64,000 nt of DNA, from contig NZ_JAGSYB010000001.1 of assembly GCF_025685415.1 (NCBI RefSeq), forward strand, positions 2,976,001 through 3,040,000, written 5' to 3'. The translations under genes were made by a program, and so were the position numbers. The notes below the pieces were generated by a model, which did not search any database, was not told the DNA's origin, and saw only the letters and a program-made list of their open reading frames with translations. Source of the stretch: Terriglobus aquaticus. Its GTDB lineage: Bacteria; Acidobacteriota; Terriglobia; Terriglobales; Acidobacteriaceae. Shown in pieces: positions 20,845 through 38,264 of the stretch. The first letter of the stretch is position 1. Each line of letters starts with the position of its first letter.

Positions 20845-22959
20845 TTATCCGATGTCTTCGTTCCAGTTCTCCAGAACGTTCTTGAAGTCGGTCATGAACT
20901 TGCCGGCATCGGAGCCGTCGATGATGCGGTGGTCGAAGCCGAGCGTGAAGCGCTGCACGCTGCGCACCGCGATCACGTCGCCGCCATCCTTGTCCTGCAC
21001 CACGAGCGCTTCCTTGTTCAGGCCGCCGATGCCCAGGATCGCGACCTGCGGCTGGTTGATCACCGGCGTTCCAAACTGCTCGCCGAAGATGCCCGAGTTG
21101 GTCAGCGTGAACGTGCCGCCCGCCACCTCATCCGGCGCTAGCTTCTTGTTGCGCGCGCGATCCGCAATGTCCACAATGCCGCGCGCAATGCCGAGGAAGT
21201 TCTTCTCCTCGGTCTGCTTCAGCACCGGCACAATCAGGCCCCAGTCCAGCGCCACCGCAATGCCGATGTTGATGTTCTTGTTGTAGCGGATATTCTGGCC
21301 CTCGACCGCGGCGTTCACGATCGGGTGCTTGCGCAGCGCAACGATAGCGGCGCGCGTAATGAAGGGCATGAACGTGAGCTTTACGCCGTTGCGCTGCTCG
21401 TACTTGTTCTTTTCCTTCTCGCGCAGCTTCACAATGCGCGTCATGTCCACCTTGAATACGGTGTGCACGTGCGCACTGGTCTGCTTCGACTCCACCATGC
21501 GCTTGGCGATAATGGACCGCATCTTGGACATGGGCACCACTTCGCCCAGCACCGGCGCGGACTCGACCGCGGCCTGCTTCGGCGCCGTGGTTGCGGGCGC
21601 GGACTGCGCCGTGCTCGCCTCCTGCCGTGCGCTGGTCACCGGCTGCGCCGTTCCGCTGCTCACCTGGGCAACGGAGTGCGACGGCGTTCCCGGAACCGAC
21701 GGCGTACCGGAGCCCTGCTGCTGGCCGGAATTGCCCAGCATCGGCGAGCTGGCGCCCGCAGCAGCCTTACCACCGCTGTTCAGGTAGCCGACGATATCGT
21801 TCTTCGTAATGCGGCCTTCGAAGCCCGTGCCCGCAATGCCGGCCGAGCGCAGGTCCACACCGTTCTCGCTGGCGATTTTGCGCACCAGCGGCGACGAGCG
21901 CGGTCCCTTGCCGTCTGCCACCTGCTGCTGAATCGCCGCACCAGCGCGCTGCGCCTGCGTGTCGGGTGTTGCGGTCGGCATCGGCTGCTTGTTCTGCACG
22001 GGCGCGCCCACACCGGCTCCGCCGATCACGGCAACGACCGTGTTGATCTGGACGGTCTGGCCTTCCTGCGCGCGGATCTCGGTCAGGGTACCGGCCGCAG
22101 GCGAGGGAATCTCCGCGTCCACCTTGTCGGTTGAAATCTCAAACAGCGGCTCGTCGCGCTGAACGGTGTCGCCCACCTTCTTCAGCCACTTCGTGATCGT
22201 GCCCTCGGTGATCGACTCGCCCATCTGCGGCATCGGAACCTCGGTCGCCGGTCCGCCGGCATTGCCGCCGCTGGGAGCCGCCACGCCACCGGGCGCGCCG
22301 GGCTGCGATGCGCTCGAAGCAACGCCATCGCCCTGGCCGGTGCCCGCGGGTGCAACAGAGCCCGCCGAGGCCGCGCCACCGATCACCGCAACCACCGTGT
22401 TGATCGCGACGGTCTGGCCTTCCTGCGCCTTGATCTCCGTCAGCACGCCTTCCGCGGGAGACGGAATCTCGGCATCCACCTTGTCGGTCGAAATCTCGAA
22501 GAGCGGCTCGTCGCGCTGGACGGTGTCGCCCACCTTCTTCAGCCACTTCGTGATCGTGCCCTCGGTGATCGACTCGCCCATCTGCGGCATCGGCACGTCC
22601 GTGCTCGGCGTCGCTCCCGGGGCAGTCTGCGATCCAACCTGCGCGGGCGGAGCCGCGGGTGCGGACTGCGTCGCTGCCGAGGCCTGCGGTGCCGCGCCGT
22701 TCGAAGCGCCATTGCTGGAGCCCGCAGCGTCAATCACGGCGACCACCGTGTTGATCGCGACGGTATCGCCTTCCTTGGCCTTCACTTCCTTCAGCACGCC
22801 TTCCGCGGGCGACGGAATCTCCGCATCGACCTTGTCGGTCGAGATCTCAAACAGCGGCTCATCGCGCTTCACGGTATCGCCGGGCTGCTTCAGCCACTTG
22901 GTCAGCGTGCCTTCGGTGATCGATTCGCCCATCTGGGGCATAACTACGTCGGTCGGCAT
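20845..22959 (-). CDS. sucB: 2-oxoacid dehydrogenase E2 (dihydrolipoyllysine succinyltransferase-type) with three lipoyl domains
   Basis: E2 core of a 2-oxoacid dehydrogenase complex, most like 2-oxoglutarate dehydrogenase succinyltransferase, 704 residues. Three lipoyl domains share MPQMGESITEG and TDKVDAEIPSPA, with lipoylated lysines K43, K160 and K279. They are joined by Ala/Pro/Gly-rich linkers. An E3/E1-binding domain lies at about 355-393 (PLVRKIASENGVDLRSAG). The acyltransferase domain ends in FDHRIIDGSDAG (H677, D681). Enterobacterial SucB has one lipoyl domain, so three is on the high side. ATG 22959 has AAGGA 5 nt upstream. It is the last gene of the lpdA operon and follows lipB, whose product prepares its lipoyl groups. 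Confidence 0.88.
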   Translation of the reverse strand: MPTDVVMPQMGESITEGTLTKWLKQPGDTVKRDEPLFEISTDKVDAEIPSPAEGVLKEVKAKEGDTVAINTVVAVIDAAGSSNGASNGAAPQASAATQSAPAAPPAQVGSQTAPGATPSTDVPMPQMGESITEGTITKWLKKVGDTVQRDEPLFEISTDKVDAEIPSPAEGVLTEIKAQEGQTVAINTVVAVIGGAASAGSVAPAGTGQGDGVASSASQPGAPGGVAAPSGGNAGGPATEVPMPQMGESITEGTITKWLKKVGDTVQRDEPLFEISTDKVDAEIPSPAAGTLTEIRAQEGQTVQINTVVAVIGGAGVGAPVQNKQPMPTATPDTQAQRAGAAIQQQVADGKGPRSSPLVRKIASENGVDLRSAGIAGTGFEGRITKNDIVGYLNSGGKAAAGASSPMLGNSGQQQGSGTPSVPGTPSHSVAQVSSGTAQPVTSARQEASTAQSAPATTAPKQAAVESAPVLGEVVPMSKMRSIIAKRMVESKQTSAHVHTVFKVDMTRIVKLREKEKNKYEQRNGVKLTFMPFITRAAIVALRKHPIVNAAVEGQNIRYNKNINIGIAVALDWGLIVPVLKQTEEKNFLGIARGIVDIADRARNKKLAPDEVAGGTFTLTNSGIFGEQFGTPVINQPQVAILGIGGLNKEALVVQDKDGGDVIAVRSVQRFTLGFDHRIIDGSDAGKFMTDFKNVLENWNEDIG

Positions 22960-23146
22960 AGACATCCTTCGCGATTCGCTCGCGGCGCGCGTACGCACCA
23001 GCAGCGGGTTTGCGCCTCAAACCAATCCGGCCAAAGGCCAGAATCAGGCGAGCGTCATCGCCAACGATTATAGAGAGAAGCGGCGAACCCTCGCTGAAAC
23101 GGCCGGATCACGCGCGTTTACCGGGCCAGGCACCTGCCCGATTGTC

Positions 23147-23893
23147 CTACTGCGAGCTAGCCGCCGCGCGCTGCAGCAGATGCTCCAGCGACTCGGCATG
23201 CAGCATCTGCCGCCCAAACACGCCGCCGAGGCAGCGGCTCACCACGTTGCGCGCGTTCTCCATGGTCGGCGCCAGCGCGGGCGGATCATCCACCTCGTTC
23301 TCCAGCGACGTGGGCACGCGGTCCGTAATGCCGCACGGCACGATCCAGTCGAAATCGCGCAGGTCGGTTGTCACGTTCAGAGCGAAGCCGTGCGACGTGA
23401 TGCCGCACGACACATGTACGCCGATCGCCGCAATCTTCTTCTCCAGCACCGACCCGCCGCCCACCGTCCACACGCCCGTGCGGCCCGCGATCCGCTGCGC
23501 GGGAACGCCGAACTCGCGGCAGGCGCGGATCAGCACCTCTTCCAGCAGGCGGACATAGTCCACCGGTCCAAGGTGCGGCCCCTTCTTCCCGGGCAGGTCG
23601 CCGCGCAGATCGACAATGGGATAGCCGACCAACTGTCCCGGCCCGTGATACGTCACGTCGCCGCCGCGATTGATCTCGTGAATCTCCACGCCACGCGCGC
23701 ACAGCAGGTCATCGCTCGCCAGCACGTTCTCGCGCTTCGCATTGCGCCCCAGCGTTAGCACGGGCGGATGCTCCAGCAACACCAGCGTGTCCGCAATGGC
23801 ACCAGCCTTGCGCGCTGCGATCAGCTCCCGTTGCACGCGCAGCCCCTCGGCATACGAAACACGTCCAAGCTGCAGGAGATGAACGAAGCTCAT
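23147..23893 (-). CDS. lipB: octanoyltransferase LipB
   Basis: Transfers octanoyl from acyl carrier protein to lipoyl domains, the first step of lipoate synthesis. A 248-residue protein with the hallmark RGGDVTYHGPGQLVGYP (76-92). The catalytic lysine is in KKIAAIG (K153) and the catalytic cysteine in IVPCGI (C187). The final 40 residues form a variable tail. ATG 23893 is preceded by GAGAAG. It lies between the HicA toxin gene and sucB, whose product carries three lipoyl domains and is its likely substrate. lipA is not in the window. Confidence 0.95.
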   Translation of the reverse strand: MSFVHLLQLGRVSYAEGLRVQRELIAARKAGAIADTLVLLEHPPVLTLGRNAKRENVLASDDLLCARGVEIHEINRGGDVTYHGPGQLVGYPIVDLRGDLPGKKGPHLGPVDYVRLLEEVLIRACREFGVPAQRIAGRTGVWTVGGGSVLEKKIAAIGVHVSCGITSHGFALNVTTDLRDFDWIVPCGITDRVPTSLENEVDDPPALAPTMENARNVVSRCLGGVFGRQMLHAESLEHLLQRAAASSQ

Positions 23894-23925
23894 GTCTACT
23901 TCTTCTCGCGTCCGATTTCGGGAAG

Positions 23926-24096
23926 CTACAGCCCGCGACAGATTTTGCGGGGCAACAGGTCAGACACTTCCGTGTGGCGCGGCACCGCTTCGGTTTGCCC
24001 CGTCGCGGGGTTGGTCCAAAGAGAGTGCGCTCCGCCCTCCCTTTTCAAATAACAACCGTAGATCCGGAGAAAGCGGAGCAGAGCTTCGCGCTTCAC
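23926..24096 (-). CDS. hicA: HicA-type mRNA interferase toxin (56 aa, GTG start)
   Basis: A short gene on the minus strand whose GTG start overlaps the hicB stop in a GTGA junction. The translation starts VKREALLRFLRIYGCYLKRE and continues GGAHSLWTNPATGQT and EAVPRHTEVSDLLPRKICRGL. This is the HicA fold: a small dsRNA-binding-like ribonuclease with the catalytic His24 in GGAHSLW, then a basic helix. HicA cleaves mRNA and is neutralised by HicB. The gene is complete and ends 32 bp before lipB. The order is hicB then hicA, the reverse of the usual arrangement. It is small and GTG-started, so easily missed. Confidence 0.88.
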   Translation of the reverse strand: MKREALLRFLRIYGCYLKREGGAHSLWTNPATGQTEAVPRHTEVSDLLPRKICRGL

Positions 24097-24308
24097 GCGA
24101 CCTGAACCGTTTGAATCAGCGCGTCCGGAGGAACGCCGCGCAAGCCATCCTCGCGGCGGTCCTCCAGCAGTAAAGCAATCGCCTCAGAAAGATTGTCTCG
24201 GCACTCTTCCAGCGTTTTGCCTTGCCCATTTGCACCGGGCATTTCGGGCGACCAGGCAACAAACCAGTCACCATCCCGCTCGATCACTGCACTGAATTCA
24301 TGACGCAT
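24093..24308 (-). CDS. hicB: HicB-family antitoxin
   Basis: A 71-residue protein with the HicB partial RNase H-like fold: FSAVIERDGDWFVAWSPEMP, then GKTLEECRDNLSEAIALLLE. HicB binds and inhibits HicA. The protein ends right after the core fold, with no C-terminal ribbon-helix-helix or HTH domain. Self-repression by DNA binding is therefore doubtful and the pair may depend on the host operon's promoter. ATG 24308 has a strong GGAGGAG site and starts only 15 bp after the lpdA stop, indicating cotranscription. Confidence 0.92.
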   Translation of the reverse strand: MRHEFSAVIERDGDWFVAWSPEMPGANGQGKTLEECRDNLSEAIALLLEDRREDGLRGVPPDALIQTVQVA

Positions 24309-24323
24309 ACAGTCTCCTCCGCC

Positions 24324-25754
24324 CTACGCGTTCAGGCTCATGCCCTTTACGCTCGCGAATCCGTCCAGCAGGCTCTCGCTCAGCGTGGGGTGCGGGTGCT
24401 GCGTGAACATCAGTTCGTCGATGGTCACCTCCGCCTCGATCGCCAGCACCGCCTCCTGGATCAGCTCCGTGGCGTACGGCCCGATGATGTGCACGCCCAG
24501 CACCTCGCCGTAAGTCTCGTCCGCGATTACCTTCACAAAGCCGTCGTGCGCGTTCAGGATCGTCGCCTTTGAATTGCCGGCCAGCGGGAACTTGCCCACC
24601 TTGATCTTCCAGCCGTTCTTCTCGGCCATTTCGCGCGCCATCGCCTCGTTCAGGCCCACGGAACCGATCTGCGGCTCGCAATAGGTGCACGCCGGAATGC
24701 GGTTGCGCGTGACGGGCTTGTACGGCTTGCCCGCCATGTGCGCCGCGGCCACGGCACCCGCCATGGCTCCGCCGTGTGCGAGCAGCGGCAGACCGGCGAC
24801 GATGTCTCCAATCGCGTACAGCCCCGGCTCCGTCGTCTCGAAGTGATCGTCCACCTTGACCGACGTGCGATCCATCTCGACCTTCACGGTCTCCAGGCCC
24901 ACGTTGGCGGTGCGCGGTGCGCGGCCGATGGCGATCAGCACCTTCTCCACCTCGAGCACCTGGTCCTTGCCGTCCGACGTCTTGAAGTGGACCTTGGCGC
25001 CGCCCTCCACCTTTTCCACCTTGTCCATCAGGGCGCTGGTGTGGAAGTTGATACCGCGCTTCTTGTACTGCCGCGCAAACTCCTTGCTCACTTCCGCGTC
25101 CTCGGCCGGCACCAGTCGGTCGGCCATCTCGATGATGGTGACCGGCACGTTGAAGCTGTTGAAGACGCTCGCGAACTCAACGCCCACCGCGCCCGAACCG
25201 ATCACGGCCAGCGACTTCGGCATCTTGTCCAGCGACAGGATCTCCACGTTGGTCAGGATGGTCTCATCCGCCTGCAGACCGGGGATCATGCGCGCGTCGG
25301 AACCGCTGGCCAGCACGACCTTCTTCGCCTGCACCTGCGACTTCTGGCCGTCGTTGTCCACGTCCACCGAGAACACGCCACCCTTCGCGCCGCCGTTCAG
25401 CTTGCCGTAGCCGCGCACCAGCGTGACCTTGTTCTTCTTCACCAGGTACTGCAGGCCGTTGGTGTGCTTGCTGATGATCTCGTTCTTGCGCTTCAACACC
25501 TGCGGCCAGTTGATCGTGCCGGCGCCGATGTTATCGATGCCGTACATGCCGCCTTCCTTGGCGTGATCGAAGATCTCCGCCGAAAACAGCATCGCCTTCG
25601 TCGGCACGCAGCCCACGTGCAGGCACGTTCCACCCAGCTTGTCGCTCTTCTCAATCAGCGCGACCTTCAGGCCATACTGCGCCGCGCGAAACGCACACGA
25701 ATACCCCGCCGGACCACCGCCGATCACGGCCACATCGAACACTGTCTCTGCCAC
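24324..25754 (-). CDS. lpdA: dihydrolipoyl dehydrogenase (E3)
   Basis: Flavoprotein that reoxidises dihydrolipoyl groups of 2-oxoacid dehydrogenases with NAD+. A 476-residue protein. The FAD-binding start is FDVAVIGGGPAGYSCAFRAA and the redox disulfide is in GGTCLHVGCVPTKAM. The NAD domain has SLAVIGSGAVGVEFASVF. The C-terminal His-Glu pair of the dimer interface is in TQHPHPTLSE. I chose GTG 25754 because the longer frame adds about 49 residues of non-family sequence, and GGAG lies 6 nt upstream. It is the first gene of a five-gene operon ending in sucB. Confidence 0.95.
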   Translation of the reverse strand: MAETVFDVAVIGGGPAGYSCAFRAAQYGLKVALIEKSDKLGGTCLHVGCVPTKAMLFSAEIFDHAKEGGMYGIDNIGAGTINWPQVLKRKNEIISKHTNGLQYLVKKNKVTLVRGYGKLNGGAKGGVFSVDVDNDGQKSQVQAKKVVLASGSDARMIPGLQADETILTNVEILSLDKMPKSLAVIGSGAVGVEFASVFNSFNVPVTIIEMADRLVPAEDAEVSKEFARQYKKRGINFHTSALMDKVEKVEGGAKVHFKTSDGKDQVLEVEKVLIAIGRAPRTANVGLETVKVEMDRTSVKVDDHFETTEPGLYAIGDIVAGLPLLAHGGAMAGAVAAAHMAGKPYKPVTRNRIPACTYCEPQIGSVGLNEAMAREMAEKNGWKIKVGKFPLAGNSKATILNAHDGFVKVIADETYGEVLGVHIIGPYATELIQEAVLAIEAEVTIDELMFTQHPHPTLSESLLDGFASVKGMSLNA

Positions 25755-27049: not shown

Positions 27050-27106
27050 CTCCATCAGGCGAGAGGCGGTGGGCGACCGCTGGCACGCCCACCGCTTCGT
27101 TCTCGC

Positions 27107-27361
27107 CTACTGCGCCCAGATGCTCGCGTTCAGGCAGGCCACCACGCCATCGATCACGGCGCCCAGACCCTTGGTAAAATCGTCGGCGTTCACAATGTTC
27201 TTCGCCGCCACGGCATCGGTCATTTTGATCGCGGAGCTCACAATCTCCAGCGCGGCCGCGCGCTTTTCGTCGCCCGTCTTGGCGCCATAGATCTGTTCAA
27301 TGCCCTGCACTAGGCTGGGCAGAATCGCGATCCCACGCAGAAACAGCTTCAAGAAATTCAT
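27107..27361 (-). CDS. hypothetical 84-aa protein, last gene of phage cassette
   Basis: Small protein with a short hydrophobic N-terminus (LFLRGIAILPSLVQGI), then an amphipathic helical region (DEKRAAALEIVSSAIKMTDA). It starts at ATG 27361 with GAGGAGAG just upstream. It follows the XhlA-like holin gene on the same strand after 127 bp and is the last minus-strand phage-type gene. It may belong to the lysis module, but no known family is recognised. Confidence 0.6.
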   Translation of the reverse strand: MNFLKLFLRGIAILPSLVQGIEQIYGAKTGDEKRAAALEIVSSAIKMTDAVAAKNIVNADDFTKGLGAVIDGVVACLNASIWAQ

Positions 27362-27488
27362 CCTCTCTCCTCTCGCTCGCCCAGACTGGGCAGCGTTTTA
27401 GAAAGCGCATCCGCCAGCGCCCGCTTACTTTGCAGCGCAAAGCAGATCGGGGCTGCGGTGCGCGTCCTTTTAGTGCGCTTCCGCGCGT

Positions 27489-27704
27489 CTACTTGCGCAG
27501 GGTGTCCATCGCAAAATGAACCACCGTGAGGGCCACGCTCAACACGCCGCCTACGCCCTTCATCCGCTGCACCGTGCGCTCATGCCGGTCCACACGCTCT
27601 TCCAATTGGCTCAGCCGGCCGGGCTGGCCAACGCCAAGCAGGGCGTGCATCTGGCTCTTCAATGCGCTCAGGTCCGTCAGGACCTGGCTCTCGAATTCCG
27701 TCAT
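27489..27704 (-). CDS. XhlA-like holin/hemolysin accessory protein, 71 aa
   Basis: A coiled-coil region (LSQLEERVDRHERTVQRMKG) followed by one C-terminal transmembrane helix (VLSVALTVVHFAMDTL). This is the layout of XhlA-type phage proteins, which anchor at the membrane and help cell lysis. I chose ATG 27704 because AAGGAGATAACG precedes it; the frame upstream of it overlaps the tail gene region and is not convincing. It suggests a lysis function, although no endolysin was found nearby. Confidence 0.65.
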   Translation of the reverse strand: MTEFESQVLTDLSALKSQMHALLGVGQPGRLSQLEERVDRHERTVQRMKGVGGVLSVALTVVHFAMDTLRK

Positions 27705-27818
27705 CGTTATCTCCTTCGCGGCTCCGCCACAGTGGCGGCACCGGGCAAGCACTCCGGCCTGGCAAACGCTGCCAGCCTCCTGTGCTTCCCGGTGCTCACT
27801 CGCGGACACCGCTCCGTC

Positions 27819-29957
27819 TTATCCCGTGGGCAGGTGCGTACAAATCAGGCTTGACTGCCCGGAATACACCGGCGTTTCCGAGCCGTCATACATGCGCACA
27901 TAGAACCGCTCTGCAAACGCCGCCCGCGGAATGCTGAAGCTGCGCACCGGACTGCGCAGCACCAATTCACCGTCGGGTGCGGCACCCGGCTGGTCCGGTC
28001 CCCAGCCTCCATCGTGGCGACGCACCTCAAACCCGCCGCCCACCGGCGGTATGGTGCCCGCGTCCACCTGCAGCGACGTGGTGCCCGCAACCGTCACAGC
28101 CAGTTGAGGCAGTGATGCCGTTGTCACGACCGCGTACACCGGTGCGGGCAACGCCGCATCCGCAGCAGCGCCCATCTCCGTGCGAAAGCTCAGACCATTG
28201 CTCTTCGCCTGCTCGAAATCCACGGCATACTCCAGCGTCTCCGGCACACTATGGCCAGACCGGATGGTCACGCGCGTGACCGGCACACTTACGGGCGTTG
28301 CAGCCACCGGCAGCGCAACCGCATCCCCGGGCTGCACGTCTGCAGTGCGCTCCGCGTTAGCCATCGAGCACTTGCCGCGCACCCCGAAGGCCGGGCTGCC
28401 GTAAAAGCCGAGCAGCGCCTGGGCTGCAGCGGCGCAATCGGCAGAACTGCGCGGTTGCGGATCGGTCACCCGAGAGCTCGCCGTTCGAAAGCCGGGCAGT
28501 CCCATCTGCGCCCGTTGCGCGGTCGCAGTCGCACTTTGCACACGCGCCTGCGACCGCTGCCCCAGCCGGTACGTTGCCGTGACAAGCGCTCCGGCCGCGG
28601 GCTCTCGCCCAGCGAAAAACTCCAGCGACGTCCCGCTGATGCGGTAGTCCTCGCCGGTCTCGGGCGTACCCGGCCTGCGCACCTGCACCGATCCATCGGT
28701 CTGCGTGGTGGCGACCCACGCCGACCCCTGCTGCTGCAACGTGATCGCCGCCGCGGTCATCACCAGGCTCTGTGAATTCACGGGCGCAAAGACCGCACTC
28801 GCAATCGAGCTGCTCACCGCACCCGCATACAGCACCGTCGCCCGCGTGCTGCTGGCAAGGCCTTCGTCCAGCACCTCAATCATCATCTGCATGGGTGCAT
28901 CGACCAGGCCGCCGCCCCATGTCTCGACTGCGCCGTTCACCAGCGCCTGGTAGCTCCCGAGCACACGCTGCGTCTCTCCGCAGTGCAGCCGCACACGCAA
29001 CGTATAGCTGTGACCAGTCGCCCAGTTGTAGGGCGTTCCGGTTGCGGATCCGTTCACCAGGGCGGACAGGCTTTGCGCACCTCCGGATGCATTCACCTGC
29101 ACACCCGCAAAGCAGGTAGGCACAGTGACCACGTTGCCATACATGCCCAGCAGCACACCCGCGCTGCCCGGCTGCAACACCAGGCCACGCATCTCGGCGC
29201 AGAGGGTACCGCCCATCTCTACAGGCTGTTGCGCGGCCATGTAGGTCTGCCCGTCGAAGCCGTTGCCACCAGTGATCCGCAGGCCGCCGGAGCCAAGGCC
29301 GATGTGCTGCCCCGTATCGGCAAAGCGCCACACGGCGCTGCGAAACTGCGAGTCGATGAAGCTGTCCGCGATCAGTGATTTCTGTCCGGAGGGGACAAAC
29401 GGCTTCGCCGTCAGCGCAAAGGTCGCGGTCGTTCCATCGCCTTGGAACAGCTCCGTCACATAGGTAGTGGGTTCCTCCGCGCCGGTCACCAGCACGTCCG
29501 TCGCGCGCTCGCCCGCTGTTTCTGCACTCTCCGGCTGCAGCACAATCGCGTTCTCGCTGAACGCAACCGGGTGCGTTGCCGACGACGTGGGCTGCAGGCT
29601 CACATCCGGCGCGATGTTCACCAGATAGGCGTCCTCCATCGCCTCGAACGCCACCGGTGCGCTGCCGTTCAGCACCGATCCGGCTCGCACCGCCGGCGAG
29701 ACGATCACGCCCGAGAACAGTTGCGCACCCGAGGTGGCGTGGACGGTGACGCGGCAGCCCTGCTGTGGTGGCTCCAGCCCGGAGGTTCCAACCTCGACCG
29801 TACCGAAGCAGCGTGCGTACTGCCCGCGCTTCCGCTCAATCCGGAACGTTTCGATCGTTGTCGAAGCGTTTGAGTGTTGTGCCGGCGGCGGCGCAACCAG
29901 CGTCGCCGTGTAGTCCACCGGGCCGTTGCCGTCCCCAAAATCGAATGAGATTCGCAC
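27819..29957 (-). CDS. phage tail/baseplate structural protein, 712 aa
   Basis: Large, Gly/Ala/Ser/Thr-rich beta protein. The N-terminus (RISFDFGDGNGPVDYTATL) looks like a tail or hub domain. A region at about 540-610 (SSADCAAAAQALLGFYGSP, then RTADVQPGDAVAL) resembles hub/baseplate proteins. The end (GGFEVRRHDGGWGPDQPG) looks like a fibronectin-type module. I chose GTG 29957 because of a strong AAAGGAGGAG site 8 nt upstream; the longer frame upstream is spurious. Probably a tail-tip or baseplate component. Moderate confidence in phage origin, low in exact role. Confidence 0.72.
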   Translation of the reverse strand: MRISFDFGDGNGPVDYTATLVAPPPAQHSNASTTIETFRIERKRGQYARCFGTVEVGTSGLEPPQQGCRVTVHATSGAQLFSGVIVSPAVRAGSVLNGSAPVAFEAMEDAYLVNIAPDVSLQPTSSATHPVAFSENAIVLQPESAETAGERATDVLVTGAEEPTTYVTELFQGDGTTATFALTAKPFVPSGQKSLIADSFIDSQFRSAVWRFADTGQHIGLGSGGLRITGGNGFDGQTYMAAQQPVEMGGTLCAEMRGLVLQPGSAGVLLGMYGNVVTVPTCFAGVQVNASGGAQSLSALVNGSATGTPYNWATGHSYTLRVRLHCGETQRVLGSYQALVNGAVETWGGGLVDAPMQMMIEVLDEGLASSTRATVLYAGAVSSSIASAVFAPVNSQSLVMTAAAITLQQQGSAWVATTQTDGSVQVRRPGTPETGEDYRISGTSLEFFAGREPAAGALVTATYRLGQRSQARVQSATATAQRAQMGLPGFRTASSRVTDPQPRSSADCAAAAQALLGFYGSPAFGVRGKCSMANAERTADVQPGDAVALPVAATPVSVPVTRVTIRSGHSVPETLEYAVDFEQAKSNGLSFRTEMGAAADAALPAPVYAVVTTASLPQLAVTVAGTTSLQVDAGTIPPVGGGFEVRRHDGGWGPDQPGAAPDGELVLRSPVRSFSIPRAAFAERFYVRMYDGSETPVYSGQSSLICTHLPTG

Positions 29958-29977
29958 CGTTGTTGCTCCTCCTTTCG

Positions 29978-30970
29978 CTAGATCGTGCTTGCCGGCGCCG
30001 GCAAGTAGCTGCGGTAGCACAGGACCGCGTCGCCGTCGTTGCCGTCCGTTACCGGCAGCGCCAGGAGGCTGGCCTGCAAGCGCCACCGCTCCAGGCCAGT
30101 TGCCAGCGCCTGTCGCGTTTCAGTCGCGCCGGGAGCTACCTGCAGCCGCGGGTAGTGCAGCAGAACGCGATCACCCGCCACGCCATCCGCAACGAACAAC
30201 GCCGACCACTCACCTAGAAAGCTGCCGCCCACGCGATCCACGCAGCCCACCACCACGCTCACCTGCATGGCACCAGCCGGCGCGCCCGCCGGCAGCGGTG
30301 CCGACAAAACCAAGATCTGCGCCGTCGCCGCGTTCGGATCCGGCACCACGCTAGAGACGCGCGCGAGGTTGAAGCTGATCCTGCGCAGGTAGTGCACATC
30401 GTTGTTCACCCTGGCCGCGCTCGCCACATACGCTCCTGCCATCGGCGAGCCCAGGAACCCGGTCTGCCCGGCATAGTCTGCGTCCACCACAACGGTGTCT
30501 CCGGCGTTCACCTCAAAGCTTGCTGGCACGCGCAGGCTGTTCGCTGTCGACCCGCTCAGCACCGCTGCACTGTCGGGTGTGCCGCCACTGTCGGCCGCGG
30601 TGAAGATCGCCGCGGTCCGCAGGAGATTCATCTGCTGCGATCCGCTCGAAAGCGCCATCGCCAGCTTGGACCATGCCGCAAAGGTCACCTGCAGCGAAGC
30701 TCCGCTGCCCGAGCGTGCGCGTGTGCCGATGGTCGCCGGGGCTCCGGTCCAGATCTCCGCAAACGTGCCCGTATCCTTGCGCTCCATAGCCGCAACTGCA
30801 CCCAGCGCCAGCCATCCCGAGGGCGGTGTTGCAACGGCGAAGCGCCCCTGGCGCGCCGGATCAAACGTCTTTGCGCCGCCACCATTGCGGTCCACGGGCG
30901 CGACAAACATCTGCGCGCCGCCGCTCACCACCGGCGACACGGCCGGCGTCCATCCCGCTGCACCGCTCAT
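29978..30970 (-). CDS. phage tail tube-like structural protein, 330 aa
   Basis: A protein of mainly beta character that follows the tail terminator-like gene with an ATGA overlap, the usual place of the major tail protein. Segments such as TFAEIWTGAPATIGTRARSG, VVVDADYAGQTGF and YLRRISFNLARVSSVV fit a tube-type beta fold, but no motif is decisive. ATG 30970 has a GGAGGG site. The position and the tightly overlapping genes are the main support. Confidence 0.65.
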   Translation of the reverse strand: MSGAAGWTPAVSPVVSGGAQMFVAPVDRNGGGAKTFDPARQGRFAVATPPSGWLALGAVAAMERKDTGTFAEIWTGAPATIGTRARSGSGASLQVTFAAWSKLAMALSSGSQQMNLLRTAAIFTAADSGGTPDSAAVLSGSTANSLRVPASFEVNAGDTVVVDADYAGQTGFLGSPMAGAYVASAARVNNDVHYLRRISFNLARVSSVVPDPNAATAQILVLSAPLPAGAPAGAMQVSVVVGCVDRVGGSFLGEWSALFVADGVAGDRVLLHYPRLQVAPGATETRQALATGLERWRLQASLLALPVTDGNDGDAVLCYRSYLPAPASTI

Positions 30971-31461
30971 GGTTCCCTCCACGCAAACACGTCCACCGAG
31001 TACGCCGCGTTGAGCGTGTCGGCAGTTTCCTTCAGATCCTCCGCGACCACGCCGCTCCAGAAGACCGGCGTAGCCGCGGCGGTTGCACTTGCGCCCGCGT
31101 AGCTCGCCTTCGCTGCGCTGCCTGCCGCAAGCAGCGACTGCAGCTCCGCGCGCATAGCCGCCATGGTTCTTCCGCGATCCATGCCGGCGACCTCGGGCGA
31201 TCCGCTCGTCTGCACCTGGATCGTGCAACGGGCAGACTCCAGCGGCATAGCTTCCGAACCGTCCACGGCAACCGCGCCCCAGTGCAGCACAAACGCGTTC
31301 AGCGGCTGCTCCGCGCTTCCCGACGGCAACTCGTTCTCCGCTACCAGCACAGCCGGCCGGGTTGCGCCGCGCACCACGATCGTGCGATCCGGATTCAACG
31401 TCGCCAGCCCGTTCCGCAGAAGCAGGTAGAAGCTGTCTTTCGCATCCTGAAACGTCGTCAT
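30967..31461 (-). CDS. phage tail terminator/minor tail-like protein, 164 aa
   Basis: Starts FQDAKDSFYLLLRNGLATLN, then a beta-rich middle, and ends VAEDLKETADTLNAAYSVDV. The size and position (after the head-tail connector, before the tube) fit a tail terminator or completion protein. It overlaps both neighbours by 4 bp (ATGA), so translation is coupled. Confidence 0.62.
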   Translation of the reverse strand: MTTFQDAKDSFYLLLRNGLATLNPDRTIVVRGATRPAVLVAENELPSGSAEQPLNAFVLHWGAVAVDGSEAMPLESARCTIQVQTSGSPEVAGMDRGRTMAAMRAELQSLLAAGSAAKASYAGASATAAATPVFWSGVVAEDLKETADTLNAAYSVDVFAWREP

Positions 31462-31865
31462 ACGCGCGCCTCCGCTCTGGTTTCACGCAGGAACAAGCGG
31501 TATAAGTACGCCCGGCCACGAATCGCGAGCGGCTGCACTTCCCGCAGCAGCAACGAATCGCTGCCCACCTGTACAAACGCGGCGCTTGCCAACGTCTGCC
31601 TTGCGGCGTCGCTATCGCTCACGCCCAGCGCCGTCTCCAACGTTGGCGCGGCCACCAGCAACTCGCGCGATCCGTCGCTGCGCATACGCACCGCGCACGG
31701 CGCGATTGAAATATCGTGGAACTCCGGCGACGGCAGACCCAGCTCCTCACCAGGCGTTGCCGCCAGCGGCGGAGACGGCAGCCGCACCAGGGCCGCGGTT
31801 CGGCCAAGCGTTCGCGCGGCCGACAGCGCAGACGCACGCGCTCCCGACGCAAACCCCGCGCTCAT
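31458..31865 (-). CDS. phage head-tail joining-like protein, 135 aa
   Basis: A 135-residue protein beginning SAGFASGARASALSAARTLG and ending LAIRGRAYLYRLFLRETRAE. ATG 31865 overlaps the upstream stop and the downstream start overlaps its own stop, both as ATGA. The family is not identified. The position between the gp6-like connector and the terminator-like protein suggests a head-closure or neck protein. Confidence 0.6.
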   Translation of the reverse strand: MSAGFASGARASALSAARTLGRTAALVRLPSPPLAATPGEELGLPSPEFHDISIAPCAVRMRSDGSRELLVAAPTLETALGVSDSDAARQTLASAAFVQVGSDSLLLREVQPLAIRGRAYLYRLFLRETRAEARV

Positions 31866-32470
31866 CCGAGCCTCGTTGCGCAATACGGCTGCAAAAGCCG
31901 CTGCACATCCGCATCCAGCAACGTGTTGCTGAAGTAATCCATCTCCAGCGCATCCACGTGCTGCCGCTTCACATTCAGTCCCGGCGTGCTCTGTGCATTG
32001 CGCACAATCTGCGCACACGCCATCTGCACCGGCGCGGGAATCGTGGCGTAACCCGCCGTGTAGGTGATCTCCGCTTCATCCGCAGGCACACCCAGCAGGT
32101 TGGTGGGCAGCTCGGCTTCGCCATCCACTGAGATCGAAAGCGTCGTCGGATCGATCGTGTTCCATGTGCCGCCCAGGCCAAATGCCATGGCGTCGGCCTG
32201 CAGTTGCGTAAACGGCATCGCCGACCACCGGTCCGGCCGCATGCGCCGCAGGCGCGTACGGCATGCCGTAATCGCGACCACCGGGCCGTAACTCAGCCGC
32301 AGCGTGCGTCCATCGCGCGCGAAGCGCAGTCGCTCCACGTACGAAATCACGCCCAGCGAGGCGCGGCGGCAGAACGCATCGATCAGCGCGCTCGCCGCCG
32401 CCACCAACGCATCCGGGGTTTCGTCGTCCAGGCCGTTCAGCGCGTAATCGCCTGGCTGCAAATACACCAT
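31862..32470 (-). CDS. phage head-tail connector (gp6-like), 202 aa
   Basis: An N-terminal region DDETPDALVAAASALIDAF followed by a beta region and C-terminal helices with QHVDALEMDYFSNTLLDADV fits the gp6-like/HK97 connector family, whose helical bundle docks to the portal. ATG 32470 is preceded by AAAGGAGGG, while the longer frame lacks support. It lies just downstream of the capsid gene, as in HK97-type phages. Confidence 0.68.
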   Translation of the reverse strand: MVYLQPGDYALNGLDDETPDALVAAASALIDAFCRRASLGVISYVERLRFARDGRTLRLSYGPVVAITACRTRLRRMRPDRWSAMPFTQLQADAMAFGLGGTWNTIDPTTLSISVDGEAELPTNLLGVPADEAEITYTAGYATIPAPVQMACAQIVRNAQSTPGLNVKRQHVDALEMDYFSNTLLDADVQRLLQPYCATRLG

Positions 32471-32599
32471 GCACCCTCCTTTCAAAGGTTCCATGTGCAA
32501 CGAAAAAGAGAGCGGCGCATGCCTCGAACCGATCGAAGCCTGCGCCGCCAAATCCATCAACTCATCAGCCATCCGCGGCGCCGTCACTCAGCGATCATT

Positions 32600-32636
32600 C
32601 CGCTGACTCGCTCACCTGCTGATCCGCTGACTCGCT
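32600..32636. repeat. 13-bp direct repeats between capsid and connector genes
   Basis: CCGCTGACTCGCT occurs at 32600-32612 and again at 32624-32636. On the minus strand the area reads as degenerate heptamers around GAGTCAG. GCTGACTCGCTGACTCG recurs at 37177-37193 between the HipA and DUF3037 genes, so this is a short dispersed repeat inside the phage cassette. Confidence 0.55.
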
Positions 32637-32641
32637 ATCTC

Positions 32642-33613
32642 CTACCGATCCACCAGCACCTGGTAATGCGCGTAGTTCGCGCCCTTCACCACCAGGCCGC
32701 CGAACTTGACCGCGACGTACTGCGATGCCAGCGATCCAGGCGTGCCAAGCTGGAAGACGCGCGGGTTCGGGTCGCTCAGCCAGTGGTACTCGATCATGTC
32801 TTCGGTGACGATGTACGCCGGCAGAACCGCGGAGCCCGAGCCCGGCGTTCCGGTGTAACCCAGCGTCCACTCCGGAATCAGCGGAATGTCGCCGGCCTGC
32901 GTCGAAAGCATCTTCACCGTGATGCCGCCGGTGATCTGCTGCGTGTTCAAGACCACGTTGAAGGCGGTCTTCGTCTCGCGGTCGATCAGGTCCAGCAGCA
33001 CCGGGTTGGCGTAGATGGCGGTGGGCCGAACGGCGTAGTTGCTGTTGGCCACCATCAGCGCGATGGTCGACTTGAACGCGTCCACGATGCTCTGGTTTGC
33101 GCCCACCGTCACGGTATTACCGCCGGCAACGATCTGCCCCGCTGCACCGTAGTACTGCGCGGTGGTCGGCGTGGAGAGCGACGTATCCGAGCCGTTCCAC
33201 AGCGCCACGTCGTGCGCGCGCATCACGCCTTCCACGGTGTCGTGCAGGTCCTTCGCCTGCAGATAGGCGAACTGGGACTGCTGCACGCCCAGCTCCATGT
33301 CAAACAGGTTGTAGTTCAACTGCGCCACCAGCGCCTTCAGCGGAACACTGCGTTCCACGCGCGTCGGCGTCACCACTGGTGCAACGATGTTGCGCGGGTC
33401 CACAAAGCCTGCAGCCAGCGCGGGCGAAGGGATGCCGGTCTCCTCAAAGAAGCGCGAGGGGTGACCCGTGGCAGGCACCTGCTTGATGCGCTGTCCGAAA
33501 GCGCCGCGGCGGCGAACGATGTCGGTGATCTCCGTCTGGTACTGCGGAACTTCGATCGCGCCCGGCCCAATGTAGTCGGCGGCGGCGTGCAGGTCACGAA
33601 ACTGTGCGATCAT
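32642..33613 (-). CDS. phage major capsid protein candidate (HK97 fold)
   Basis: A 323-residue protein in the capsid position: after the protease and scaffold-like genes and before the connector. The sequence includes DIVRRRGAFGQRIKQVPATG, PLKALVAQLNYNLFDMELG, and a long central region ending in AYIVTEDMIEYHWLSDPNPR and YVAVKFGGLVVKG. These fit a beta/alpha coat protein of the Encapsulin/HK97 type. ATG 33613 has an AGGAG site. A strong hairpin (33641-33668) lies just upstream. Confidence 0.7.
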   Translation of the reverse strand: MIAQFRDLHAAADYIGPGAIEVPQYQTEITDIVRRRGAFGQRIKQVPATGHPSRFFEETGIPSPALAAGFVDPRNIVAPVVTPTRVERSVPLKALVAQLNYNLFDMELGVQQSQFAYLQAKDLHDTVEGVMRAHDVALWNGSDTSLSTPTTAQYYGAAGQIVAGGNTVTVGANQSIVDAFKSTIALMVANSNYAVRPTAIYANPVLLDLIDRETKTAFNVVLNTQQITGGITVKMLSTQAGDIPLIPEWTLGYTGTPGSGSAVLPAYIVTEDMIEYHWLSDPNPRVFQLGTPGSLASQYVAVKFGGLVVKGANYAHYQVLVDR

Positions 33614-33640
33614 TCTGGTCTTTTCTCCTGAAACGTGCAT

Positions 33641-33668
33641 CGGCGCGCCGGAGTCCTCCGGAGCGCCG
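33641..33668 (-). other. GC-rich hairpin upstream of capsid gene
   Basis: CGGCGC/GCGCCG and CCGGAG/CTCCGG arms with one mismatch form a nearly continuous palindrome between the scaffold-like and capsid genes. There is no T-run after it on the minus strand. It may be an RNA-processing or stabilising element rather than a terminator. Confidence 0.45.
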
Positions 33669-33712
33669 TTCCAACGGTTGTTTGAATGTTGAAGTGTGCT
33701 GAAATGCGCGGG

Positions 33713-34057
33713 CTACAGGATGCCCGCCCGCAACAAGCCGGCCTTTACAGCAAATCGCTGTTCCACGCTCAGGCTGCTCAGGGCATCATCCACAGCGGCG
33801 GGCCGTACCGGCTCAGCGCCCTTCGCCAGCAGATGCGGAGCGTAGCTTGGCTGCGTTTTGCGCCCACTCGCAACAGGGCTGGTGGCAGCCGACGCGCTCA
33901 CCGTGCGCAGGTCCGCAATGGCTGCTTCCAGATCGCGAATGCGACGGTCCAGATCCTCAAGCCGCGGGTCGGCAACGGCGGTCGCAGCCTCCTGCGCGGG
34001 CGCAGCAATCTCCGCCACAATCGCGCCCACTTCGTGTTGCATCATCTCTTCGTTCAT
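33713..34057 (-). CDS. phage scaffold/decoration-like protein, 114 aa
   Basis: Mostly helical, with a coiled-coil stretch (DPRLEDLDRRIRDLEAAIAD), an unstructured Ala/Pro region, then a short conserved-looking end (VEQRFAVKAGLLRAGIL). ATG 34057 was chosen because GAGG lies just upstream; ATG 34066 is the alternative. A coiled-coil gene between protease and capsid is typical for capsid scaffolds. The role is inferred from position only. Confidence 0.55.
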   Translation of the reverse strand: MNEEMMQHEVGAIVAEIAAPAQEAATAVADPRLEDLDRRIRDLEAAIADLRTVSASAATSPVASGRKTQPSYAPHLLAKGAEPVRPAAVDDALSSLSVEQRFAVKAGLLRAGIL

Positions 34058-34116
34058 CGTCCTCATCTCTCCTCTTCCGCTCACGCGTCTGCGGTGGCAC
34101 ACACGCTTCGCAGTGC

Positions 34117-34875
34117 CTACGCACCAGGCGTTCCCCTACGCACGCGCATCGGTGCAGTGGTTTGCGTGGGCACTTCCACCGGCCGCACGGCCCCGGCGCG
34201 TGGCCGTTCCGCCTGCCGAAGCGGCTGACGCTGTGAGTGCGTGCGCTGCTCCGCCAACTTCGGAGCACCAGGCAGCTCCACCTCCGCGGCCGGCTTCGCC
34301 ACACCGGACCGATCCACGCGAAAGCTGGTGTTGCGATACGCTGCCTTGGATCGCAGCAGGATGGCCGCGCCAGTGAAGGTCACCCGGTTCAGCCGCCACT
34401 CCTGCGCGCGCATGTCGTCCACGTGCGCATCGGCCAGCTCATAGCTCATGCCCAGCGCTTCATCGCCGTGCGCATGGATTTCGTTCATCATCTCGGCCCA
34501 GTCGCGGGCGAAGAGGTAGCCCTCCACGCGAACGTCGTTGCCGTCCAACTCTGCAGCCGTCACGATGCCGCATTTCTGCTTCGCATCATGGCCGTCCCAC
34601 CCGCTCTTCCAGTCCACCGCCATGCCCAAGAGGCTTGGCAGCGCAGCCTCTGCGGCGGCACGCGTCAGCACCACGCGATGGCCGCGCGCACCGGACGGCG
34701 CCTTGTCGCTGGGCTCATCCACGCGGGTCAGCACGCCCGAGAACGGAACACGGTTGGGATGGCCCGCCACTTCTGGGAAGCGAACCGCCATCGCATGCAC
34801 GTTGCGCAGCCGGCGATGGGCAAACGCGTCCACGCTGCGGTACGGTGTGCCTGTCTCAGCCATTCGGTTCTGCAT
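34117..34875 (-). CDS. phage prohead protease-like protein, 252 aa
   Basis: Begins PYRSVDAFAHRRLRNVHAMA. The central segment GYLFARDWAEMMNEIHAHGD, then EALGMSYELADAHVDD and WRLNRVTFTGAAILLRSKAA, resembles head-maturation proteases, with a His in HAHGD and a possible Ser in GMSYE. The C-terminus is Pro/Arg-rich. The start overlaps the portal gene's end by 20 bp, with a GAGGAGG site. A protease or its catalytically dead relative is likely; the family assignment is tentative. Confidence 0.6.
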   Translation of the reverse strand: MQNRMAETGTPYRSVDAFAHRRLRNVHAMAVRFPEVAGHPNRVPFSGVLTRVDEPSDKAPSGARGHRVVLTRAAAEAALPSLLGMAVDWKSGWDGHDAKQKCGIVTAAELDGNDVRVEGYLFARDWAEMMNEIHAHGDEALGMSYELADAHVDDMRAQEWRLNRVTFTGAAILLRSKAAYRNTSFRVDRSGVAKPAAEVELPGAPKLAEQRTHSQRQPLRQAERPRAGAVRPVEVPTQTTAPMRVRRGTPGA

Positions 34876-36133
34876 CGTCCTCCTCGGTTGATGGTTCGTT
34901 GCTTGCGGGCTGGCCGGCCGCGGCTACCATGGGCGGCAAACCGCGCTGCGCCCGCACCTCATCCACGGTCAAAATGCCCGCGCTCAGCAGTTGCACCTGC
35001 TGCGAGATCACCGTCGCTTCGTCCCGCGCCTCCGTGACAAACTCAAAGCGGAATTCGTCCCACCCCAGCGCCCGGTCGAAGACATCCCGGGTGATGTGAT
35101 CGGCCAGCAGCGAGGCCACTGGCAAGACCGCACTTTCAAAGCTCTGCGCGCTCATCTCTGTCGCCGTGGACCGGTTGACATCCTCCTGCAGACCCAGAAA
35201 CATGGGCGGCATATCGAAGGCGTTAGCGATCACACGCACCAGAAACTGCTGCCACTCCAGGCGCAGGTCCGCGTCCGTCCCCTGTCCAAACCGCAGGACT
35301 TCAGGCTTGGAGTCGGTCGACAGGATCGGCACCTGCCCTGTGCCTTCTACCTCGTCCTGCCACCACCGGATCAGCCGCTCATGCTGCGCTGGTGTCGCCT
35401 CGTCCAGCCACAACGCATACTGCACCACGCTGTTGCTGGCCAGCCGGCCGGCGTAGCGGTGCGCGGTCAGGAACTGGTTCACCGTGTCGAACGCCACTTC
35501 TACGCGGCCCAGGCCGAGCGGCGTGTGCGTGCGCGGGTTCAGCCGGATGTACATCAGCTCGCCGTTCAGCAGCGGCTTCGCTTCCGACGGGCTGAACGGG
35601 TTGGCCGCATAGGCATATCGTGGCACCGCCGGATCGCCGTTCCACGCCGCGTCCACCTGGATGGCCGCCCCGTCGATCGGCCACAGCCGCAACGGCTCGT
35701 CCGGATCGTCCGTGTGTTCGATCTCCACCGATCCGAAGCCGCCGACGATCACGTCTTCCAGCACCGGCTCGATCAGCGTGCGAAAGCTGTCCTGTGGATT
35801 TGGCGCGTCCATCAGCCGCAGCAGCACAGCCTCGCGCGCATCGGTGTTCTTATCACGCTTCCGGTCCGGCTTCAGCGACACCTGCCACCGCATGTTGACC
35901 ACGCGGTCTTTCACCAGGTTGATCGCGCGCCGCACCACCGGCTGCTCTGCCATGCGGCGCAGGTTTGCGGCCGTTGGCTTGGGCAGCGCGCCTACGCCCT
36001 GCGGCCGCCAGGGCTGCAGCAGCGCGGGCAGGGCACGCGCCGCTGCCGGCGGCTCAGGCGTGTGTTGCTGCTGCGCGGGATGTTTCTCTCGCAGGGTGCG
36101 CAGCGCACCTTGCAATCGGGTTACAGCACCCAA
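34856..36133 (-). CDS. phage portal protein
   Basis: A 425-residue portal protein (HK97 family), forming the channel through which DNA enters the capsid. Key segments are VVRRAINLVKDRVVNMRWQV, DVIVGGFGSVEIEHT, IRLNPRTHTPLGLGRVEVAF and AFDMPPMFLGLQEDVNRST. TTG 36133 was chosen: AAAGGAG sits 7 nt upstream, and the region further upstream contains two hairpins that belong to the preceding unit. It is separated from the terminase by the HipA/DUF3037 insertion. Confidence 0.85.
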   Translation of the reverse strand: MGAVTRLQGALRTLREKHPAQQQHTPEPPAAARALPALLQPWRPQGVGALPKPTAANLRRMAEQPVVRRAINLVKDRVVNMRWQVSLKPDRKRDKNTDAREAVLLRLMDAPNPQDSFRTLIEPVLEDVIVGGFGSVEIEHTDDPDEPLRLWPIDGAAIQVDAAWNGDPAVPRYAYAANPFSPSEAKPLLNGELMYIRLNPRTHTPLGLGRVEVAFDTVNQFLTAHRYAGRLASNSVVQYALWLDEATPAQHERLIRWWQDEVEGTGQVPILSTDSKPEVLRFGQGTDADLRLEWQQFLVRVIANAFDMPPMFLGLQEDVNRSTATEMSAQSFESAVLPVASLLADHITRDVFDRALGWDEFRFEFVTEARDEATVISQQVQLLSAGILTVDEVRAQRGLPPMVAAAGQPASNEPSTEEDDAEPNG

Positions 36134-36164
36134 ATGCTTTCTCCTTTCTCTGTTCCAAAGCAAA

Positions 36165-36190
36165 GGGCGTGACCCGTATGGATCACGCCC
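36165..36190 (-). terminator. terminator-like hairpin after HipA-DUF3037 unit
   Basis: GGGCGTGA pairs with TCACGCCC (8 bp, 10-nt loop). In the minus direction it is followed by TTTGCTTT. It stands between the DUF3037 stop and the portal start. Confidence 0.6.
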
Positions 36191-36204
36191 CTCTTTCATG
36201 CAGA

Positions 36205-36231
36205 CCGGGCGACCGCATTGCGATCGCCCGG
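36205..36231 (-). terminator. second hairpin after DUF3037 gene
   Basis: CCGGGCGA pairs with TCGCCCGG (8 bp, 11-nt loop), 21 bp past the DUF3037 stop. With the hairpin at 36165-36190 it makes a tandem pair. It has no T-run of its own. Confidence 0.5.
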
Positions 36232-36251
36232 ATGTAGACAAGCCGCTGACG

Positions 36252-37136
36252 CTACACTCGCAGTTCCCGCCGTGCCGTCTCGGCAACGCGCGCCAGGTCG
36301 CTCAACGTAACCACGCGAATGGCCGCTTCCTCCATCGTCTCCACGCCAAAGCGGTACCGGTCCGCCGCCTCGGAGTCGTCCCCCGTCACGCTGCGCAGGG
36401 GCTCCACCACCGCAGCCAAATCCAGCGCCGCGCGCTCCACTCGCTCCACCCCGGCACGCAGCCGCGCGGCGGAGTAGCTGAGCACCTTTGCCGCTTCCAG
36501 GTCGCCTTCCAGCGAAACCGCGTGAAAGATGCGAACCATGCCTCGTTCCATCGCGGCGCCGCCGTCCAGGTCCGGTGCGCCGTCCCGCACACTTTGCGGC
36601 GCAAAGCGATATCCGCAGTCCAGGCGCAGAGGGTCGCCCGGCCGAGTGTACTCGCTCGCCGGGATCCGCTTGCGCATCAGATCCCACACGCCAGCGCGTT
36701 CGAACTCCGACCGCATCCCGTTCACAATCGCGGCACGCCCGCTCACCCGGCGCGCCTTTTTCTCGCGCACGGGCTCCACGTACAGCCGCATCAACTGCTC
36801 CATCTCCGCGGCAACTGATTCGGCCAGGGCACCGCGGCCCTCGCTCATCTGCACGCCGGTCGACAGCGACTCTTCCAGCAACTGCATCGCGGGCTTCGAG
36901 GCGTAGCCACCATCGCGGATGCGCGTGGCCAGCTCCGCCTCCATCGACTCCAGCAGCGCCGTGTCGGCATCCGGATCCATGCAGCGAACCCGGCTCCAGT
37001 CGCGCGTCAGCTTTACCCGCGTCGTTTCCACGCGGCCGGCCTCCCGCAGCAGAACGCCGATGTTCACGAATTCGTTCTTCACCGCATCCGGAACATAGCG
37101 GAGCAGAAAGAACTCACATGGAATGCGTGCCGGCAT
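36252..37136 (-). CDS. DUF3037 domain protein, partner of HipA-like kinase
   Basis: A 294-residue protein starting with the DUF3037 signature CEFFLLRYVPDAVKNEFVNI GVLL (two adjacent blocks), then RDWSRVRCMDPDADTALLES. DUF3037 genes are commonly found beside HipA-family kinases as here, suggesting a functional pair of unknown role, perhaps toxin and antidote or a defence module. ATG 37136 has a GGGAG site. The gene follows the kinase after 67 bp and is followed by two hairpins. Confidence 0.85.
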   Translation of the reverse strand: MPARIPCEFFLLRYVPDAVKNEFVNIGVLLREAGRVETTRVKLTRDWSRVRCMDPDADTALLESMEAELATRIRDGGYASKPAMQLLEESLSTGVQMSEGRGALAESVAAEMEQLMRLYVEPVREKKARRVSGRAAIVNGMRSEFERAGVWDLMRKRIPASEYTRPGDPLRLDCGYRFAPQSVRDGAPDLDGGAAMERGMVRIFHAVSLEGDLEAAKVLSYSAARLRAGVERVERAALDLAAVVEPLRSVTGDDSEAADRYRFGVETMEEAAIRVVTLSDLARVAETARRELRV

Positions 37137-37203
37137 CTCGTTCTGCTCCCTTCCGCGACGGCTTCACCGTCGCCCTGCTGACTCGCTGACTCGAGCCAGG
37201 AGC

Positions 37204-38094: not shown

Positions 38095-38106
38095 CTCCCT
38101 CGTTGC

Positions 38107-38134
38107 AGCATAGCGAAGCGGTGGAGTTAGTGAA
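38107..38134 (-). promoter_or_regulatory. weak promoter candidate of HipA-DUF3037 unit
   Basis: On the minus strand, TTCACT (38129-38134) is 16 bp from TATGCT (38107-38112), directly before the HipA gene. Each box matches consensus at 4 of 6 positions. Confidence 0.3.
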
Positions 38135-38264
38135 GTAGGGAGCAGGGAGTAGAGAGGGGTTAGGAAGTAGGGAGTAGGGCACAGATCTCGTCGCTCTTGC
38201 CTGAGCCCTGTTCCCTGCCAAGTCCTGTTCCCTGATCCCTGTTCCCTACTCCCTCTTCCTACCC
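38124..38264. repeat. inverted arrays of heptamer repeats between HipA and terminase genes
   Basis: On the minus strand, 38199-38264 reads as tandem heptamers AGGGAGT, AGGGAAC, AGGGATC, AGGGAAC, AGGACTT, and later AGGGAAC, AGGGCTC. From 38124 to 38182 the complementary CCCTACT-type words recur, so the two arms could fold on each other. The first array supplies the last codons and stop of the terminase gene. It resembles short tandemly repeated repetitive (STRR) sequences known from other bacteria. Confidence 0.65.

Follow-up and report, generated by a model that had tools for sequence, protein, structure and literature searches.

We analyzed a 64,000-nucleotide stretch of the Terriglobus aquaticus genome (referred to here as the window), in which two small genes, hicB and hicA, are lodged between lpdA and lipB (Table 1). 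Rereading of the minus strand reproduces exactly the lpdA-hicB-hicA-lipB order and the spacings of the original prediction: lpdA and hicB are 15 bp apart, hicB and hicA overlap at GTGA, and hicA ends 32 bp before lipB. The last of these distances results from the TAG at hicA codon 57, past which the frame is still readable as the tail of related HicA proteins. The cluster had been described as an lpdA-lipB-sucB operon; co-transcription of lpdA and lipB is plausible, but the membership of sucB is less sure, as this gene lies about 180 bp beyond lipB with a weak terminator-like site in between. Between lpdA and lipB, we found neither a terminator-like site nor, on the minus strand, a sigma70-like match that could represent a separate hicBA promoter (the finding that would have spoken against shared transcription), which makes co-transcription of lpdA, hicBA, and lipB plausible. 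Because the pair has no visible promoter of its own and HicB no DNA-binding tail, hicBA is probably co-transcribed with lpdA and lipB.

Table 1. Features of the lpdA-lipB locus in the Terriglobus aquaticus window
Feature	Position in window	Strand	Evidence
lpdA, dihydrolipoyl dehydrogenase (E3)	24324..25754	-	TIGR01350, 496 bits
hicB, 71-aa antitoxin, partial RNase H type, without DNA-binding tail	24093..24308	-	UPF0150, 27.5 bits; HicB_lk, 22.6 bits; model (pLDDT 93.8) resembles HicB N-domains
hicA, 56-aa HicA-type toxin, GTG start, His24 kept; stop at codon 57 removes tail	23926..24096	-	PF07927, 23.1 bits; H-E-E-E-H model resembles HicA chains
Former hicA tail, in-frame LPEIGREKK and old stop, ending 2 bp 5' of lipB start	23896..23925	-	Sequence; tail kept in relatives
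lipB, octanoyltransferase	23147..23893	-	NF010925, 196 bits (cut-off 155)
sucB-type E2, three lipoyl domains; start inferred from ATGs near 22959-22965	20845..22965	-	TIGR02927, 655 bits; three Biotin_lipoyl stretches
Weak terminator-like hairpin in lipB/sucB interval	23026..23042	-	4 sites in region versus 4.2 expected by shuffling

A probable prophage-like block, with capsid-, portal-, and terminase-like open reading frames (ORFs) recognized by eye, occupies positions 27100 to 39800 of the window and starts some 1.3 kb upstream of lpdA. One of the three ORFs sent to PHROGs matched, to a family of unknown function, and the block contains an ORF that looks HipA-like by eye (38094-37204).

The adjacent, co-directional arrangement of the two small genes is that of a type II toxin-antitoxin (TA) module, and their membership in the HicA and HicB families is supported more clearly by predicted fold than by sequence profile. 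HicA matches PF07927 (HicA_toxin) with an E value of 7.9e-5, below the 27-bit cut-off, and an NCBIfam search with it gave no match; its relative in genome G125 reaches 43 bits against the HicA profile. HicB passes the UPF0150 cut-off (27.3 bits) and falls under that of HicB_lk (27 bits). The HicA model is confident even without the tail (pLDDT 89.6), and its five best Foldseek matches are all HicA-type chains (6hpb, 1whz, and 6g26, from Escherichia coli, Thermus, and Burkholderia), with TM scores of 0.65 to 0.84 and modest E values of 0.02 to 0.11; the best of these matches have TM scores of 0.80 to 0.84 at E values of 0.02 to 0.07. The HicB model matches the N-domains of HicB proteins (6g1c, 6g1n, 6g26, and 4p78), this domain alone being present in the 71-aa protein. 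Sequence searches of the PDB retrieved nothing useful with HicA and 2yzt with HicB. His24, whose retention had been predicted, is present in the window copy, as it is in all 79 aligned relatives; the role of the active-site histidine in HicA is treated in PMC11594946.

To place the pair among its relatives, we scanned named genomes, which yielded 255 relatives of the window HicA, and analyzed the best 80. HicB lies just upstream of HicA in 79 of these 80 loci, the remaining one being cut by a contig end. In a set of 84 loci that includes the window and four family loci, HicB is 64 to 78 aa long, and the 4-nucleotide hicB/hicA overlap occurs in 80. Antitoxin-first order, overlap, and tail-less HicB are thus traits of a cosmopolitan HicBA subclass and not of the operon. 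The "reversed" order that had been singled out as a peculiarity of this locus is accordingly rejected as a special feature, antitoxin-first being also the usual order of type II modules as described in PMC7167474. The missing tail, from which it had been suggested that the module may be under metabolic-operon control, likewise characterizes the subclass; HicB proteins without a DNA-binding domain are called common in PMC11594946, which also mentions hicBA operons. Three Acidobacteriaceae copies of hicBA outside the junction (L065, L066, and L067, in three genomes) adjoin an opposite-strand gene that resembles pyruvate kinase by eye.

To establish how widely the lpdA-lipB junction is occupied, we surveyed 150 genomes of the family Acidobacteriaceae, drawn evenly from a larger group, and detected LipB in 140 and LpdA in 126. 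The two genes are neighbors within 2 kb in 92 genomes, and G034, with a gap of 5.2 kb, brings the number to 93. The gap exceeds 250 bp, the length above which we considered that a TA pair could fit, in 34 of the 92. The contents of 33 of these 34 large gaps, together with that of G034, were read (G129, with a 324-bp gap and lipB split over contigs, was left out). TA genes of five kinds (two HicBA classes, canonical HicAB, VapBC, and Xre-RES) occupy the junction in 21 of the 93 genomes, which belong to 15 genera, and are contained in 20 of the 34 gaps larger than 250 bp. The class of the window, hicBA-1, is present in G000, G052, G007, and G125, with a hicB remnant in G090; hicBA-2 in G149, G066, G141, G138, and G108, with hicB alone in G087 and G072; and vapBC in G031, G098, G067, G130, and G034, accompanied in G130 by xre-RES. 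The canonical hicAB type occurs in G006, G136 (toxin broken), G054 (a relic), and G024 (hicB only), with an intact toxin in none of the four; the G136 frameshift and the G054 hicA relic were judged by eye. Across the 16 junction loci of HicB/HicA type, the toxin is intact in 8, shortened in 1, and broken or absent in 7; hicB is thus often retained where hicA is broken. Two further genomes (G135 and G074), in which HicA adjoins lipB and lpdA is not beside it, are outside the 21.

These TA labels are assignments by homology. Pfam, run on the window and on G031, G130, G067, G149, G108, G006, G024, G090, and G072, supports HicA, HicB_lk, PIN, RES, and Xre_MbcA_ParS_C in the representatives, with the G090 junction protein just under the cut-off at 26.0 bits; the others of the 21 were assigned by tblastn with probes or by reading. 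VapB-like partners gave no Pfam match at 0.001 (two sent), and one gave a weak match to RHH_1 (E value of 0.019).

Outside the family, lpdA and lipB are neighbors in 64 of the 69 sampled genomes of the same class that have both genes, so that their adjacency is class-wide, and it is tight, with a median gap of 65 bp. Only 2 of these 64 gaps exceed 250 bp (Fisher P = 1.7e-7 for the family versus the rest of the class, relatedness ignored), and no TA genes were seen in either of the two. Among the 80 best loci from the named records, lpdA lies beside hicBA-1 in 7, from Terriglobus, Silvibacterium, Acidobacterium, and unclassified Acidobacteria or Acidobacteriales. With each genome counted once, the arrangement is found in eight genomes, in seven of which lipB is also seen (for L059, lipB was not seen in the remaining 2 kb of the contig). 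Conservation of the insertion, proposed as a check of the original prediction, therefore extends beyond one strain with a broken HicA (the HicA here is shortened yet keeps His24) but is patchy, with hicBA-1 in 4 of the 93 family genomes plus the one hicB remnant. The rest of the 93 junctions hold unrelated TA modules, other genes, or nothing, and the presence of different TA modules and of empty states at one junction identifies it as a TA-accommodating intercistronic site.

Several junctions of this cluster are enlarged in the family. In a set of 60 regions, gaps larger than 250 bp occur at 22 of 60 lpdA-lipB, 7 of 33 lipB-pdhA, and 14 of 30 pdhA-pdhB junctions; the frequency of large gaps at the last two indicates that the cluster is generally permissive in the family and that lpdA-lipB is not peculiar in this respect. 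The cargo between pdhA and pdhB (the pyruvate dehydrogenase E1 subunit genes) is mostly non-TA, as judged by eye and from seven proteins sent to Pfam, although phd-parE modules were found there in two cases, both facing the other way (G045 and G110; loci L191 and L194). A neighborhood that is TA-rich in general was considered and rejected: 11 TA probes matched the gap in 11 of the 60 regions but gave no match across 1.13 Mb of flanking sequence, a control that is partial in that the probes derive from the gaps and missed both phd-parE modules. In G151, the lpdA end is preceded, at a distance of about 3.5 kb, by a weak HicA match (E value of 0.002), and in G090, a HicA lies some 7 kb from lpdA. 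Plasmid and phage searches returned two weak matches each.

Counts of toxin genes over whole genomes give a background for these occurrences. HicA is present in 196 copies in 88 of the 150 family genomes, and by coordinates, six copies fall in the lpdA-lipB junction (G000, G125, G138, G141, G006, and G136); in G066 and G149, the only HicA match should be the one in the junction, which adds two more. At mean density, about 0.01 HicA would be expected in the 32.0 kb of summed gap (with a round figure of 4.2 Mb for mean genome size). For PIN proteins, of which there are at least 1,412 in the family, about 0.08 would be expected in 37 kb versus 5 seen. Both expectations are orders of magnitude, as the relatives are not independent.

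A terminator-like hairpin occurs within 75 nucleotides after lpdA in 31 of 102 loci (versus 1.7 expected by simple shuffling) and after lipB in 4 of 104. The frequency of hairpins after lpdA suggests that this junction is often a transcription boundary and not the interior of an operon, and 9 of 28 TA loci have one. In the window and in loci L064 and L053, the pair follows lpdA by 11 to 18 bp, and no terminator-like site was found. Two vapBC copies (L224 and L140) are preceded by an inverted repeat, CATCATGATG, with a TTGACA-like box, which may provide these copies with an operator and a promoter. In one subclade (L180, L182, L183, L188, L190, and L193), short lpdA-lipB gaps carry imperfect inverted or CACGGAT-rich repeats like those of repetitive intergenic elements.

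Turnover at the junction is evident within Terriglobus, for which 19 genomes were searched (in G155, G157, G158, and G159, lpdA lies outside the stretch read). The junction holds hicBA-1 in G000, hicBA-2 in G150, and vapBC in G160 and G031; the gap in G161/L223 (the same sequence as L064, from an uncultured Terriglobus) contains tandem hicBA-1 and vapBC plus two opposite-strand genes; and in G152, vapBC lies just before lipB in a stretch without lpdA. Other Terriglobus junctions carry opposite-strand cargo, DUF1684-like in G095, G153, and G151 and AHSA1 plus ArsR-like in G162, and gaps of 119 to 330 bp (G128, G148, G154, G156, and G163) gave no TA matches. On a tree of LpdA plus LipB with 86 taxa, adjacent tips bear different modules (e.g., hicBA-1 in L060 and hicBA-2 in G066), and hicBA-2 in G108 stands beside the hicAB relic in G054. 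A single ancestral insertion kept vertically was rejected, since the distribution on this tree is patchy and copies from the junction are interspersed with others on the HicBA tree. Some junction copies of hicBA-1 nonetheless appear to be old and selected rather than fleeting: a subgroup of the window, L059, L064, and L063 (support of 0.93) looks old, the copies partly share their history, and dN/dS of hicB and hicA is approximately 0.04 to 0.21 where computable (synonymous sites are often saturated), which points to purifying selection on the pair over longer times.

Overall, we consider it likely that the window contains a type II HicBA module within an insertion-permissive boundary that TA modules have entered repeatedly in the family, where they would be tolerated when co-directional with the host genes. 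The window module would be expressed on an lpdA-hicB-hicA-lipB transcript, with hicA translation coupled through the GTGA overlap; HicB would bind HicA over its active-site histidine, and HicA would cut RNA when HicB runs short. Such a module would persist by being addictive and leaving its neighbors undisturbed, and its decay would start with the toxin.

The original prediction tied the toxin to central carbon metabolism and lipoylation, and in its strongest form, this would mean that the module is kept because its transcription is linked to that of the lipoate/2-oxoacid dehydrogenase genes, such that cells losing this transcription would stop growing. Consistent with such an arrangement, all HicBA, HicAB, VapBC, and Xre-RES modules seen in the junction are co-directional with lpdA and lipB, other cargo facing both ways; the closely spaced pairs without a terminator-like site and the low dN/dS of hicBA-1 point in the same direction. 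But the toxins, which are frequently broken, belong to unrelated families, the junction lacks TA genes in most relatives, and the hairpins that precede some TA loci, like the palindrome and TTGACA-like box read in front of vapBC in G031 and G160, would uncouple those copies from lpdA. Moreover, the family-level orientation tally, made by eye, is 9 to 0 for TA genes versus 14 to 8 for other cargo (P = 0.07), and the AHSA1-ArsR pair of G162, a predicted TA type according to PMC2701414, is on the other strand. We therefore find a dedicated link to metabolism unsupported and very unlikely, and give equally little credence to convergent recruitment, whereby unrelated TA families would have been taken up, always in operon orientation, so that expression of the lipoate/2-oxoacid dehydrogenase genes restrains a generic growth-arrest toxin. 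Somewhat less improbable, though still unlikely, is a plain mutational hot spot, a boundary that attracts any DNA, with the excess of TA modules due solely to the difficulty of losing them. The junction does hold other cargo (DUF4126, TMEM175, YHS, DUF1684, and AHSA1 by Pfam; phosphatase-like, methyltransferase-like, and other genes by eye), cargo at the sister junction pdhA-pdhB is mainly of this sort, and the excess of hairpins after lpdA suits such a boundary; however, TA genes are present in 20 of the 34 large gaps, when HicA and PIN together average about 11 per family genome (a minimum for PIN).

The state of the window HicA bears on whether the pair still functions as a TA module. Most of its relatives are 59 to 67 aa long, and a proline in the tail that the window copy has lost is 92% conserved. 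HicA also departs from its relatives at residues 9 and 49 (91% and 89% conserved) and HicB at residues 3, 6, and 47 (93 to 99% conserved), which makes three departures from conserved residues in each protein versus a median of one, and the window branch on the HicBA tree is long. These features would fit a domesticated or dead remnant in which the shortened HicA is inactive and the HicB-HicA pair has another role or none, but no invariant residue, His24 included, has been lost, and the fold is modeled confidently without the tail, leaving this reading extremely improbable. We favor a type II module whose HicA, shortened by the in-frame stop, may be at an early step of decay.

The junction illustrates that regulation need not be assumed when a toxin gene adjoins a metabolic gene. 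It exists in about ninety natural variants, some empty, others occupied by a module from any of several TA families, and others in decay, which make it a good test bed for how TA modules insert, are retained, and decay toxin first. According to PMC7167474, the mobility and integration of TA modules are unelucidated, and their insertion does not take place at random. In a literature search, we found no paper that treats lipB, lpdA, and toxin-antitoxin systems together. The window pair shares with other HicBA operons whose HicB lacks a tail (PMC11594946) both proteins, the active-site histidine, the antitoxin-first order, and the absence of a DNA-binding domain, and differs from them in being lodged between lpdA and lipB and in the stop that shortens its HicA. 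In E. coli and Salmonella, intercistronic gaps are documented to contain TA modules, which can be exchanged at a given site and can decay (PMC7167474 and PMC7232551): mazEF lies between relA and mazG in E. coli, where Salmonella has parDE, and ccd lies between folA and apaH. In E. coli dinB-yafNO, TA genes are similarly transcribed within a host operon and hence under its control; that link, to the SOS response, is reported as known (PMC7167474), whereas co-transcription in the window is our inference. The lpdA-lipB junction resembles the relA-mazG and folA-apaH sites in its intercistronic position, in hosting different modules at one site, and in showing decay in some strains and an empty gap in others; it is unlike them in that five kinds of TA genes are accommodated, among 15 genera of the same family, at a single lipoate/2-oxoacid dehydrogenase junction. 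It represents a new and unusually varied case of the known intercistronic TA sites.
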